A stretch of DNA of 64,000 nt from Atopobacter sp. AH10 (GTDB lineage Bacteria > Bacillota > Bacilli > Lactobacillales > Aerococcaceae). Of the stretch, positions 34,226-59,887 are shown piece by piece. The notes under the pieces were generated by a model, which saw only the letters and a program-made list of their open reading frames with translations, searched no databases and was not told where the DNA came from. How positions within the stretch are numbered: position 1 is the stretch's first letter; each line of letters begins with the position of its first letter. Position numbers and translations under genes: made by a program. The DNA lies in the NCBI RefSeq assembly GCF_003664595.1, contig NZ_QXPZ01000023.1:1-64000 (forward strand), in the 5' to 3' direction.

Positions 34226-34659
34226 TAATCGCCCCCTTCGTCATCTTCAACTTTCAACATATCTACTTTTAATTCTTTGGCTAAGACGGCATCTGAATTT
34301 TTGCGCATCTGATTAAAGAAAGGTTTGAGTTGTGGCGGGAACGGTAGTCCCAACGCTTCCCAGTTTTCAGCCACGGAAATAAGATAGTTGGTCAAGAAAA
34401 AAGTACACGTCCCAACACTAACCCCGACATGGCCTAGCGCTCTTGAGTATGTCCCGACAATGAACACCATCATAAGAACTAGGATATGGCGGATAATACC
34501 GTTCGTACCAACCTTGCTATCGAACCGTTTTAACTTAAAGGCTTTTGCGTACCCCGTTAGAATATCGAACACCATAGCAATAATCAGCCCATGCATCAAA
34601 GGGCTTCTAACTAAATGCTGTAAGTGTTCAAATAGAATTTCCGTTGTCATTTCAATCAT
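34225..34659 (-). CDS. Phage holin (toxin-secretion/phage lysis holin family)
   Basis: The 144-residue protein has three hydrophobic segments (MHGLIIAMVFDILTGYAKAF, IIRHILVLMMVFIVGTYSRA, and TCTFFLTNYLISVAENW). The DxxTGYxKA...K and NYLISVAENWEALG motifs are those of the Holin_4_1/toxin-secretion family. It forms the membrane lesion that releases the endolysin. Confidence 0.9.
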   Translation of the reverse strand: MIEMTTEILFEHLQHLVRSPLMHGLIIAMVFDILTGYAKAFKLKRFDSKVGTNGIIRHILVLMMVFIVGTYSRALGHVGVSVGTCTFFLTNYLISVAENWEALGLPFPPQLKPFFNQMRKNSDAVLAKELKVDMLKVEDDEGGD

Positions 34660-34662
34660 TGA

Positions 34663-34740
34663 TTACCTCATTTCTCGTATTAAATAAGCAACCGCCCCTA
34701 CAAGCGTAAGGACGATTGCCAGTGTAACTACAAATTGCAT
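34663..34740 (-). CDS. 25-residue single-helix membrane peptide, lysis region
   Basis: ATG 34740 opens a frame with one hydrophobic helix ([20 protein letters not shown]) and a charged end. It overlaps the stop of the upstream gene and precedes the holin by 4 bases. It is likely a minor lysis or holin-partner peptide. Confidence 0.5.
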   Translation of the reverse strand: MQFVVTLAIVLTLVGAVAYLIREMR

Positions 34741-34868
34741 TACTCCTTGATTAAGTTTTCGGCATCCATCAAGCGCAGTTGCTCAGCGACATCTTTCTTC
34801 ATGAATGGTAGGACGTTCTTATACTCATAACGTCCCGCCACGATATTAATTGCCAGTAGCATTACCAT
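34740..34868 (-). CDS. XkdX/CD1375-like small phage protein
   Basis: With the ATG at 34868 (GGGGGTG before it) the 42-residue product is [20 protein letters not shown]..., including [21 protein letters not shown]. Small proteins of this kind lie between tail-fibre and holin genes in many siphophages. The longer frame to 34922 lacks a ribosome site. Confidence 0.6.
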
Positions 34869-56289: not shown

Positions 56290-56712
56290 TTAATGGCTTT
56301 CTACCTGAAGCTGTTTTCGAAGTGCTTCCTGCAAGGTTTGACTGAAATTAATTTTCTTCTCCTTTGCCATCACTTCCATCCATTTCGGAAGGGTCACCAT
56401 CTTATTAACCGAAGTGTTTTCTTCATACAAGCGAGCATAGTAGGTATCAACCGGTATATACTGCAAGAAGTCCTCGTCACTTTCCAAGAGTCCCTTTAAC
56501 TCAGATAGGCTTCGAGGGGTATTAATTTTTTTATCCATATCTTCTAAAGTTAACAACATCTCTTCTAAAGCGCCTTTTACTTGCTCAATAGCTCCATCGA
56601 TGCCGTTCCCTTCTGTTACTACCCCAGGGACATCAGGAACCGTCACTGTATAAATATTTGATTCAGGCTCCTCACTTTTTTTAAACAAGGCAACAAAATT
56701 ATACTTAGCCAT
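56290..56712 (-). CDS. HicB-family antitoxin, second copy
   Basis: The 140-residue protein has ESNIYTVTVPDVPGVVTEG and GAIEQVKGALEEMLLTLEDM with a C-terminal DNA-binding region (LPKWMEVMAKEKKINFSQTL). It is clearly a paralogue of 33495 in its C-terminal part (both have LPKW/IPKW and INFSQ/VNFSS). Its toxin partner is broken (see 56768). Confidence 0.88.
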   Translation of the reverse strand: MAKYNFVALFKKSEEPESNIYTVTVPDVPGVVTEGNGIDGAIEQVKGALEEMLLTLEDMDKKINTPRSLSELKGLLESDEDFLQYIPVDTYYARLYEENTSVNKMVTLPKWMEVMAKEKKINFSQTLQEALRKQLQVESH

Positions 56713-56767
56713 TTTTATTCCTCCTAATTTTGAAGCAAGATTTTAATTTTAAGCCGTAGACGCAGGG

Positions 56768-56953
56768 CTACTTTAGCCCAACATCTTTCATCATTTGATT
56801 CAAAGTGCCTCGATCATAATCACTTTTGTCAGGAATCGAAACGGTCACAAACCTTTCTCCATCCGTCCAGACCTCGTGACTTCCCTTCCCTCGTTTTGGA
56901 AGTTAATAGAAGCCTTTCTTTTTAATCAGCTTGATAAAATCTCGCTTATTCAT
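56768..56953 (-). pseudogene. hicA-like toxin gene with in-frame stop
   Basis: ATG 56953 (GGAGGAAGCAAG upstream) opens MNKRDFIKLIKKKGFY, then TAA at 56903-56905 (codon 17). The same frame continues as LPKRGKGSHEVWTDGERFV and ends PDKSDYDRGTLNQMMKDVGL before a stop at 56768. The GKGSHEVW block holds the HicA catalytic histidine. So hicA is inactivated by one nonsense codon while hicB stays open. Confidence 0.85.
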
Positions 56954-56977
56954 CTTGCTTCCTCCTTTGCTACATTT

Positions 56978-57006
56978 ATTATAACATAGGTAATAACATA
57001 GGTCAA
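56978..57006 (-). promoter_or_regulatory. Promoter of the second hic unit
   Basis: Minus strand TTGACC (57001-57006), 17 bases, TATAAT (56978-56983). ACCTATGTTAT is repeated directly across the spacer. The -35 overlaps the stop of the DUF1492 gene. Confidence 0.75.
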
Positions 57007-57413
57007 AGGTTTCTAGTAATTTTATCAAATTCCTTCAAAGCTTGTCCATGGAGTCGATATACCCATCTCACCTCATATCCCATAATCTCCGCGATTTCCT
57101 CCCATCTCTTGCCAGCAACGTATCGGTAACTTAAAACAGCACGGTTGCGCCTGTCTTCAAGTTGATCGATTAGCCTAGTAACTTTTACTTTCATATCCAC
57201 TAGTCGATCCACCATCGAGTCGATTTCATTGCTAAGATCAATAATTTTAGCATAAGTATCGTCTAATCTTGATGAGCGTGACTTGCTTACTAGATCAGGC
57301 TGATATTTACTCGACTTAAATAATGACGCATATATTTTGTTTTTTTCGCAGATTTTTCGGTCAATCTCACGATCTAGTTGCTGTATTTGCTTTAAATATT
57401 TCTTTGCGTTCAA
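57003..57413 (-). CDS. DUF1492/ArpU-like phage regulator with sigma-70 region 4 fold
   Basis: The 136 residues begin with a coiled coil (AKKYLKQIQQLDREIDRKIC) and end in an HTH like sigma region 4: LEDRRNRAVLSYRYVAGKRW, then EEIAEIMGYEVRWVYRLHGQ. Such proteins switch on late genes in Gram-positive siphophages. It is the last gene upstream of the packaging genes. Confidence 0.82.
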   Translation of the reverse strand: MNAKKYLKQIQQLDREIDRKICEKNKIYASLFKSSKYQPDLVSKSRSSRLDDTYAKIIDLSNEIDSMVDRLVDMKVKVTRLIDQLEDRRNRAVLSYRYVAGKRWEEIAEIMGYEVRWVYRLHGQALKEFDKITRNL

Positions 57414-57431: not shown

Positions 57432-57811
57432 AAAAGTATGGGTAGCTTAAACCCTTGATATTAAAGGGTTTAGCCAACTACCCAAACTTTTACACAAGCT
57501 TTTATTTTAAAAGTATGGGTAGGCTGAGCCCTTGAGCCACAAGGGTTTATGAGCATTTTGCCCAAACTACCCATACTTTATTCGCCATTCTTTTTTTATT
57601 TTCTAATAATAATCGTTTTTCAATTATTATTATTAATTTTTTTATTTAATTAAGAAAATTCTATGGGTAATAGAATAAGAAGTAGTCTAAAACCATGTGT
57701 ACCAAGGGTTCAAGCTGCCCATACTTTATTTCAAAACTATGTGTAAAAGTATGGGTAAAAGTATGGGCAGTTGTAAAAGTATGGGTAATTTTTATAGTGT
57801 TTTTATATCGA
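57432..57811. other. Candidate phage replication origin: iterons and tandem palindromes
   Basis: AAAAGTATGGGTA or a one-base variant occurs directly at 57432, 57509, 57745, 57757 and 57775, and inverted at about 57568 and 57717, with a variant at 57479. Two units (57434-57491 and 57511-57580) are large inverted repeats with inner AACCCTT/AAGGGTT stems. An almost pure A/T tract lies at 57590-57660. No gene fits this 400-base gap. It adjoins the primase-helicase gene, as phage origins often do. Confidence 0.6.
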
Positions 57812-59887
57812 TTATTCTTTAATGTACAACATTACCCTTTGACCCAATCGATGAGTATCCTTAATCTTGTACCCCAAAGTGTTTAATCTCCTCGTCATCG
57901 AAGCCATTTTCTGTGGCTTTGTCCCTACTTGCTCGCAAAATTCTTTATAATCCTGATATACCATCCGCTTATCCACTTGCTGATTCACGCCGACTTGATT
58001 CACAAAGGCTAGCACTGAATCACTCTCTTCTAAGTATTGGGTCAATTGCTCATCTACAATCTCATTCTTAGATAATTGGCCACCGTTCTTTCGAATGCTG
58101 CCTACCCCTTTAAGAGCAAGGTTCAGCAGATAACTTTTCGCTTCGTCCGTGGATAATTTTTTATCCATCTCAAAATCAGCATGCTGAACGACATTGTCGC
58201 AAGGAATAATCACAAGCCGTCTTTCGATACCTCCCGACTTGTCCCTAAAGGTTGGCATGTCGTTAGCGGTGAAAATGAGCGTTGCGGTGTTCTTGAGTTT
58301 TCTGGCAGTGCTGTAAATTGGACGATACATAATCGTATTACCAGAAGCCAACGTTTTAAAGTTCATTGATTTGTCTAAATAAGAAGCGTCAATATCGTCA
58401 CCGACGTTAACTAATTTATCCTCAAGTGCCATCAGAGATGTGTCATCGTTAAAAGACTCTAGGTTCACGTTAGATCCTAAATCTCCAACGAAACTATTCA
58501 GCATTTCGATAAAGGTAGATTTTCCGTTAGCTCCACGCTCGCCGACCAAGAAGAAAACTTTATGGGGGAATCCCCTCAACAGGAGGATATGTCCTAGCAA
58601 CTCCTCAACAATTATTCTCAGTTGTGGTCTGTCCATGACTAAAAAATTTAAGAAATTGTCCACATCAGCGTTGTAAGCCTTAGGGTCATAGTTAACATCT
58701 AACAAAAAAGGTGTAAATTCTTCAGAAATCCCCTGCTTAACATTACCGCCGATGATATGATAGTTATTTTTTAGTTGAATAACTGAGACGTCTAATTCAA
58801 TTTCTGGGGCTTTTTTACTCAATTGATGGATCACTTCAGCGTCTTGGGCTTTTGTTAACTCTCTAAGTCCGTTGAACGCACGTAAAAGCTTATTCTCGTC
58901 ACACGTCCAAATAAGGCCGTCCTTAAAGTAAGTTTTGTCTTTATAGCGATAGATCTCTAAGTCCTTGACAATCTCATTAGCGAACTCGATAGCGTCAAAT
59001 TTGCCCTCTAATTGCTGAGTGGCTGAGAACTTTTCAGCAAAAGAGTACTCTGTGTAAATGTCCTCAATTCGCTTGCCTAAAAACTCATTGAGTTTAACCT
59101 CATTTTCTTCAGCCCATTCTTCATTGCCCATGGCTAGGAGTCTGACGTATTCTCTTGCATGGGATTCTTGAATCTCACCTGTCAAAACCGCCTTGCCAAT
59201 GACAGAAATTGCTGATAAGGCGTTGCCATACTCAGACAGGTGCTCTTGTTCTCTTTGAATGTAAGATCTTATCATCTGAGCCGATTGCCTTTTAGAAAGC
59301 TTTTTAACTTTCTTGGCCACAGTTGCCTTTTTATGTTTCTTCTCTAGCTGTTCGGGTGTCCAAGTGTTCGAAAAATTAATCTCTATCACTTCAAAGCCAC
59401 CGTAAAATATACGGCTACAATCTTTAGGCGCTTTATCTGCTTGTGGGTAGCGCTGCATAAGCCACTCATAGGTGCGTGTGACCTCGTCTGAATCCTTGAT
59501 GATCTTATCAAGAAAGATCACTACTCTAAACTTCTGCCAATGAGGCTTGTAAGAGAAAGTTTTATACACAAAAGCAGCATTCTGCCTCATCCACTCATTG
59601 GATAGCACATCATCAATCGTGACATAGTTTTCACCTGAAGCGACTTGACCGTTAATCGTGTTGTCAAAGTCCAACATCATAACCTGCTGACTGATAAAAT
59701 TGGATTTAGACCTCGTCCCATCCATCAGACCTAGGCAAACGGTGTGACCGTTGCCTAATTTGTCCGCTAATTGTTCAGGAGTATAAGCTTCTAGATGGTC
59801 AACAATCGACTTACTGATGGATGCGGCCGTCCGTGCGTCTGGCTTGTGGTTGTAGGGGATGGGGTGCACATGTAAGGTGTAGTACAT
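57812..59887 (-). CDS. Primase-helicase fusion (AEP primase plus D5-type SF3 helicase)
   Basis: The 691 residues start with a primase-polymerase domain (about 1-180) with the DxD site in VMMLDFDNTING (72-79) and KFRVVIFLDK. A D5_N-like middle follows, then the helicase with Walker A GERGANGKST (449-458), Walker B-like VNVGDDIDASYLD, and TLIFTANDMPTFRDKSGGIE. The C-terminus holds a winged-helix segment. It initiates and unwinds phage replication. Confidence 0.92.
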   Translation of the reverse strand: MYYTLHVHPIPYNHKPDARTAASISKSIVDHLEAYTPEQLADKLGNGHTVCLGLMDGTRSKSNFISQQVMMLDFDNTINGQVASGENYVTIDDVLSNEWMRQNAAFVYKTFSYKPHWQKFRVVIFLDKIIKDSDEVTRTYEWLMQRYPQADKAPKDCSRIFYGGFEVIEINFSNTWTPEQLEKKHKKATVAKKVKKLSKRQSAQMIRSYIQREQEHLSEYGNALSAISVIGKAVLTGEIQESHAREYVRLLAMGNEEWAEENEVKLNEFLGKRIEDIYTEYSFAEKFSATQQLEGKFDAIEFANEIVKDLEIYRYKDKTYFKDGLIWTCDENKLLRAFNGLRELTKAQDAEVIHQLSKKAPEIELDVSVIQLKNNYHIIGGNVKQGISEEFTPFLLDVNYDPKAYNADVDNFLNFLVMDRPQLRIIVEELLGHILLLRGFPHKVFFLVGERGANGKSTFIEMLNSFVGDLGSNVNLESFNDDTSLMALEDKLVNVGDDIDASYLDKSMNFKTLASGNTIMYRPIYSTARKLKNTATLIFTANDMPTFRDKSGGIERRLVIIPCDNVVQHADFEMDKKLSTDEAKSYLLNLALKGVGSIRKNGGQLSKNEIVDEQLTQYLEESDSVLAFVNQVGVNQQVDKRMVYQDYKEFCEQVGTKPQKMASMTRRLNTLGYKIKDTHRLGQRVMLYIKE

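Follow-up and report, generated by a model that had tools for sequence, protein, structure and literature searches.

Among the closest described systems are those of SaPI Rep and SCCmec Cch2. According to the accessible part of PMC7581432, which also cites Ubeda 2007, both proteins bind, through their C-terminal domains, iterons that lie just 3' of their own genes. Cch2 requires the motif AAGTG, and its binding stayed intact after deletion of the inverted repeats, but was abolished after deletion of the direct repeats. In the Streptococcus thermophilus phage Sfi21 (NC_000872), positions 34487-34784 are annotated as 'origin of replication, 302 bp non-coding region'. The pRN1 protein ORF904 combines an AEP primase, a helicase and a winged helix, and its origin, which depends on a stem-loop, lies 3' of the gene (PMC4234260, accessible part). 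Primase recognition sites have also been described. The NrS-1 prim-pol recognises TTTGGTTA and GTGG (PMC8718748), and the pRN1 primase requires GTG (PMC8076596), as given in the available portions of these papers. The available portions of PMC7145576 and PMC4155818 were also drawn on.

The array considered here lies in the window, by which we mean the whole stretch of 64,000 nucleotides of Atopobacter sp. AH10 DNA that was analysed; it is part of a 69.7-kb contig in a 2.2-Mb assembly. Our best reading of the host element is an Aerococcaceae prophage that has its replication origin in the array. On the minus strand, genes for an SNF2-type helicase, a YqaJ-type exonuclease, a Sak4-like AAA protein, a DUF669 single-strand binding protein and the primase-helicase are followed by the array, a DUF1492 regulator, a HicB-like protein and the terminase genes. 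The iterons begin immediately 3' of the initiator gene, in keeping with the initial annotation, which had placed the array next to the primase-helicase gene. As in SaPI Rep and SCCmec Cch2 (accessible part of PMC7581432), a D5-type helicase is encoded with iterons just downstream of its gene, and the AAGTG iteron of Cch2 is similar to AAAGTATGGG of the window; unlike those systems, the window holds a complete phage replication module. Sfi21 and the window have in common that the DNA directly 3' of the primase gene is non-coding and that it contains short iterons on both strands and cores (in Sfi21, AAACCCATTGAAAATAAAGGGTTT and AAACCTTGATATATAAGGGGTTT) with an A/T tract between them. Sfi21 differs in having GTTAC-type iterons and in its next gene, which is not DUF1492; the DUF1492 gene sits about 5 kb away. 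We file the array best with origins of this kind (SaPI, SCCmec and Sfi21), in which a D5-type initiator is followed by 3' iterons.

Searches of phage records with the window DNA gave no match, and searches by protein gave 700 matches, none of which covered 80% of the query. An IMG/VR contig (L004) carries an array and a primase identical to those of the window and is probably the same prophage. At 56290-56989 a HicB-like antitoxin gene sits beside the DUF1492 gene, close to a region of short ORFs. GC skew showed no sign change at the array and was uninformative. Among 10 loci, Rfam gave no match at gathering score, and the matches in the window were all far below that score.

When one mismatch was allowed, AAAGTATGGGTA was found eight times in the window, five times on the plus strand and three times on the minus strand, and all eight copies fell within 57433-57787. 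Exact copies numbered four on the plus strand and one on the minus strand. The count with up to one mismatch averaged 0.40 in 100 shuffles, in which the largest value was five and none reached eight. These numbers bear out the multiple direct and inverted copies reported by the initial annotation, and the 12- and 18-base steps that it gave for three of them are correct (57746, 57758 and 57776). Degenerate repeats are also present in the array besides the eight iterons. The exact word AAAGTATGGGYA occurs seven times in the whole assembly, each time inside the array, and the pattern read backwards has one match in the assembly. Within 450 bases past the primase stop, the best 8-mer was present in seven copies (mean 1.78 and maximum 3 in 200 shuffles).

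An easily melted, A/T-rich tract lies amid the iterons. Within it, at 57586, begins the 80-bp segment with the lowest stability in the window (rank 1 of 12,784 segments). The tract had been described as made of A and T only and as lying between two palindromes; an A/T-rich tract is indeed present, but it is not A/T-only, and the palindromes are neighbours, which the tract separates from the right-hand cluster of iterons.

Table 1. Features of the repeat array and of the adjoining primase-helicase gene (positions in the window).
Feature	Position	Strand	Remark
Iteron AAAGTATGGGTA	57433..57444	+	exact
Inverted iteron (AAAGTTTGGGTA)	57479..57490	-	1 mismatch
Iteron AAAGTATGGGTA	57510..57521	+	exact
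Inverted iteron	57568..57579	-	exact
Inverted iteron (AAAGTATGGGCA)	57716..57727	-	1 mismatch
Degenerate iteron AAAACTATGTGTA	57733..57745	+	repeat families D1/D5
Iteron AAAGTATGGGTA	57746..57757	+	exact
Iteron AAAGTATGGGCA	57758..57769	+	1 mismatch
Iteron AAAGTATGGGTA	57776..57787	+	exact
Unit 1, inverted iteron pair and core, strong single-strand hairpin	57432..57491	.	z -5.8
Unit 2, inverted iteron pair and core, strong single-strand hairpin	57509..57580	.	z -5.5
Unit 3, imperfect, weak folding	57655..57729	.	z -0.7
Core of unit 1, CCCTTGATATTAAAGGG (TTGATAY class)	57452..57468	+	
Core of unit 2, CCCTTGTGGCTCAAGGG (TTGTGGCTC class), primase strand	57529..57545	-	
Core of unit 3, CCCTTGGTACACATGG (TTGGTAY class), primase strand	57693..57708	-	
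A/T-rich tract, candidate DNA unwinding element	57583..57660	.	87% A+T
Primase-helicase (candidate initiator), 691 aa, DUF5906/Pox_D5	57812..59887	-	
N-terminal AEP-type primase fold (predicted), residues 1-187	59327..59887	-	no Pfam match
C-terminal winged-helix region, residues 609-691	57815..58063	-	structure model
Wing beta-hairpin, residues 673-690	57818..57871	-	AlphaFold

The layout recurs in relatives. Of the 65 non-redundant regions that lie 3' of related primase genes, 47 have a strong iteron (an 8-mer whose count no more than 2 of 200 shuffles attained), with sequences that differ between phages; the other 18 regions had no iteron by this test. In each of the relatives with 48-67% primase identity (L005 and L007-L010), the gene is followed by about 300-450 non-coding bases, whose repeats differ in sequence but are similarly arranged. 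The same holds for phages of enterococci and for more distant ones, and a region of this kind is also present in a Staphylococcus island-like phage, in a Paenibacillus phage and in a Streptococcus satellite. Repeats were recognised by visual inspection in Sfi21 and in the satellite L405, where 8-mer counting under a G+C filter gave at most 2 copies and 1 copy, respectively. The order of the parts is the same in the relatives and the register is often the same, with units recurring at equal offsets from the stop, for example 53 and 188 bases, despite differing iterons. As far as this comparison goes, the layout is kept while the iteron sequences differ between phages. A circular 34.6-kb Enterococcus faecalis record (plasmid pAT48-c, NZ_CP097013.1) is a phage genome with a related replication module and the same origin layout; it is possibly a phage-plasmid, and is no more than suggestive of autonomous replication.

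The D5/DUF5906 helicase of the window is homologous to SaPI5 Rep, and the best fold match of the primase-helicase is the SaPI5 primase-helicase (Z 30.9, rmsd 4.5, 381 residues aligned). A Pfam scan of the N-terminal part gave no match. The best fold match of this part is the AEP domain of the S-2L PrimPol (Foldseek E 2e-5, Z 10.0, rmsd 3.9, 143 residues aligned), and its comparison with RepB' gave Z 7.5. The N-terminal part, as modelled, has an AEP-like fold.

The iterons appear to track the C-terminal wing of the initiator. The analysis of the wing started from 33 typed candidate loci, of which 24 were kept, 19 of them enterococcal. Loci with too little downstream sequence, fewer than six iteron words (L048, L081, L084 and L401) or repeated tails were left out, as were L051 (short tail) and L125 and L126 (different iterons). 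Within the clade that has AAGTNNGNNN iterons, distances of 14-residue stretches of the protein were compared with iteron distances, and the correlation peaked at the wing (r 0.57 in the enterococcal set of 19, and 0.48 when all 24 loci were used; 300 permutations, which set a floor of 0.003 on p). For the 19 enterococcal loci, r was 0.05-0.25 further upstream in the protein and 0.35 in the last 10 residues, which are closer to the iterons. The correlation is partly raised by linkage, because the iterons adjoin the codons of the wing. Residue -11 against iteron base 6 gave the top score among 97 variable columns (eta squared 0.97), followed by residues -20 and -18 against bases 8-10. In all 19 enterococcal loci, a Y at residue -11 goes with G at base 6, and an F, L or K goes with T (Fisher p 4e-5, with ancestry ignored). 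Parsimony on a tree of the remaining protein gave five residue switches and five base switches, of which five were joint, although several branches are near zero. When all 24 loci are taken together, the 7 with Y all have G, and 16 of the 17 without Y have T, the exception being L047. The excluded locus L048 apparently has Y at -11, yet mostly T at base 6. Because K at -11 pairs with G in L047 and with T in L052 and L076, the residue-base code is lineage-specific. In the window protein, D677, H679 and M686 align with the iteron-tracking positions, which AlphaFold places in the hairpin listed in Table 1, after helix 661-670. This co-variation between the initiator C-terminal domain and the iterons, seen by sequence comparison, supports binding by the primase-helicase. 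Neither the wing code nor the shared core described below is stated in the titles or abstract openings that we found, subscription papers being mostly outside our reach.

Based on these results, we consider it very probable that the array is the replication origin of the prophage and that it is bound, at its iterons, by the C-terminal winged helix of the prophage's own primase-helicase. The initial annotation had proposed a replication origin read by this protein, and the proposal is well supported by the conserved place and layout and by the annotated origin of Sfi21, with further support from the window's least stable DNA and from the co-variation of wing and iterons. The repeats, the conservation of the layout, this co-variation and the instability of the tract were directly computed. 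From them and from the family we infer binding, melting, priming and origin activity. We propose that the primase-helicase, which is encoded immediately upstream, would bind the AAAGTATGGG iterons on double-stranded DNA via its C-terminal winged helix. To judge from the co-variation, the wing may read the variable half of the repeat. As in the family, the iterons that flank the A/T-rich tract on both sides would load helicase rings, and these would melt the tract, as the stability of the DNA also suggests. The N-terminal AEP primase, going by its fold, may then prime the opened strands.

The array also contains three units, each made of inverted iterons paired about a core, two of which fold strongly as single strands. 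The two large palindromes reported by the initial annotation thus exist as units 1 and 2, and none of 200 shuffles folded equally well. Strong folding of this sort would fit a pRN1-like origin, in which the initiator recognises extruded palindromes and not iterons, and pRN1 offers a precedent for a protein of this architecture that depends on a stem-loop located 3' of its gene (PMC4234260, accessible part). However, across the relatives the homologous units frequently show no folding advantage over shuffles (median z -1.7 for 36 units, the window's included), which also means that the cruciform units are not the unusual feature they had been taken for. Whereas pRN1 depends on its stem-loop, it is the iterons that are conserved in the window's group, and not the hairpins. 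Pairing in the core stem is just above that of shuffles (309/704 against 278 expected for class A, 191/427 against 174 for class B), and the deletion results for Cch2 favour direct repeats. We regard a stem-loop origin as improbable. A core that acts as a single-strand hairpin with a co-varying stem was also considered and rejected; we do not rely on it because the pairing only slightly exceeds that of shuffles. On the sequences compared, the large palindromes are not conserved as hairpins, and the short core between inverted iterons is conserved instead.

The repeats might instead form an operator array that binds the DUF1492/ArpU-like regulator in the control of late transcription, or that autoregulates the primase operon. 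The DUF1492 gene starts at 57413, directly at the array, and encodes a sigma-70 region 4-like helix-turn-helix; a promoter-like site at 57748-57777 overlaps iterons, but five such sites were found against 4.6 expected. We find this reading very unlikely. In all eight relatives checked the array is kept beside a next gene other than DUF1492, and so it does not travel with that gene; the iteron sequence follows the primase wing; and in Sfi21 the corresponding region carries an origin annotation. The same eight relatives speak against the DUF1492 protein as the binder of the array, which had been suggested. A pair of transcription terminators, which the initial annotation had named as the finding that would count against an origin, is hardly credible despite the strong hairpins between genes, as a pattern search for a G+C-rich stem followed by a T run found no terminator-like site within the array (the two found are both outside it) and terminators would leave the direct iterons and the wing co-variation unexplained.

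An origin bound at its iterons by the primase-helicase remains our preferred reading, and within it the conserved core deserves separate discussion. Scans of IMG/VR with the patterns CCNTTGNGAGAGTAAG and CCNTGTGGCTCTAAG gave at least 120 stretches for each. Among the matches listed there were 247 core sites, 201 of them outside long ORFs. For 73 of these 201, the 3' end of a D5/DUF927, VapE, DUF3987 or PriCT_2-DUF5906-cluster gene lay within 600 bases (clusters being named by their scanned members), and 128 had no such gene nearby; inside long ORFs such a gene was near 2 of 46 listed sites (p 4e-6). All 75 of these neighbour genes, among the matches listed, turn their 3' end to the core site. 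Directly upstream of VapE, seven gene neighbourhoods were scanned from at least 17 VapE sites, with PriCT_1 in 7/7 and Prim-Pol in 6/7; a DUF3987 case that bears Toprim gave no AEP match. A core of any class was present in 40 of 47 iteron regions (13 in shuffles), which were hand-listed from the 65-region 8-mer test, against 6 of the 18 other regions (4.9 in shuffles) and 12 of 46 stretches further downstream, the TTGRTAY class being loose. L181, L202, L189, L306 and L156 each contain a pair of core motifs, separated by tens to about 160 bases. Separately, among the matches listed, RdRP-like phage proteins (PF05183 in one member scanned) end 16-80 bases from six core sites at five loci (L239, L216, L223, L306 and L331), which have no other long neighbour.

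The core between inverted iterons, which also occurs 3' of VapE, DUF927 and DUF3987 helicase genes, is possibly a priming site, because the sites of the NrS-1 prim-pol and the pRN1 primase resemble it. For NrS-1, it is the TTGTGG or TTGGTAY contained in the cores that is similar, and this is a resemblance only (PMC8718748, accessible part). The idea is weakened because primases whose N-termini are 99% identical can have either class A or class B cores, which also led us to reject that the core class is set by the primase N-terminus. The Toprim-bearing DUF3987 case and the 128 of 201 sites that lack such a gene nearby likewise count against it as a priming site. A broader and more tentative hypothesis, to which we give a minority chance, is a two-part language in which one signal serves several initiator families: fast iterons would be read by a few wing residues, and a slow core (CCNTTG-N6-YAAG, with the classes TTGNGAGAGTAA, TTGTGGCTCTAA and TTGRTAY), common to D5, VapE, DUF927 and DUF3987 helicase systems, would be the priming site of the AEP primase found alongside most of these systems.

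In sum, the probable origin, taken alone, is a well-placed and unremarkable case of a kind already described. What the comparison contributes is a conserved core beside several different initiator helicases, where it could be a priming site. It also adds which wing residues of a D5-type initiator track which iteron base, a relation that we did not meet in the accessible parts of the SaPI/SCCmec literature looked at. This tracking bears on origin compatibility among phages, satellites and SCC-like elements.
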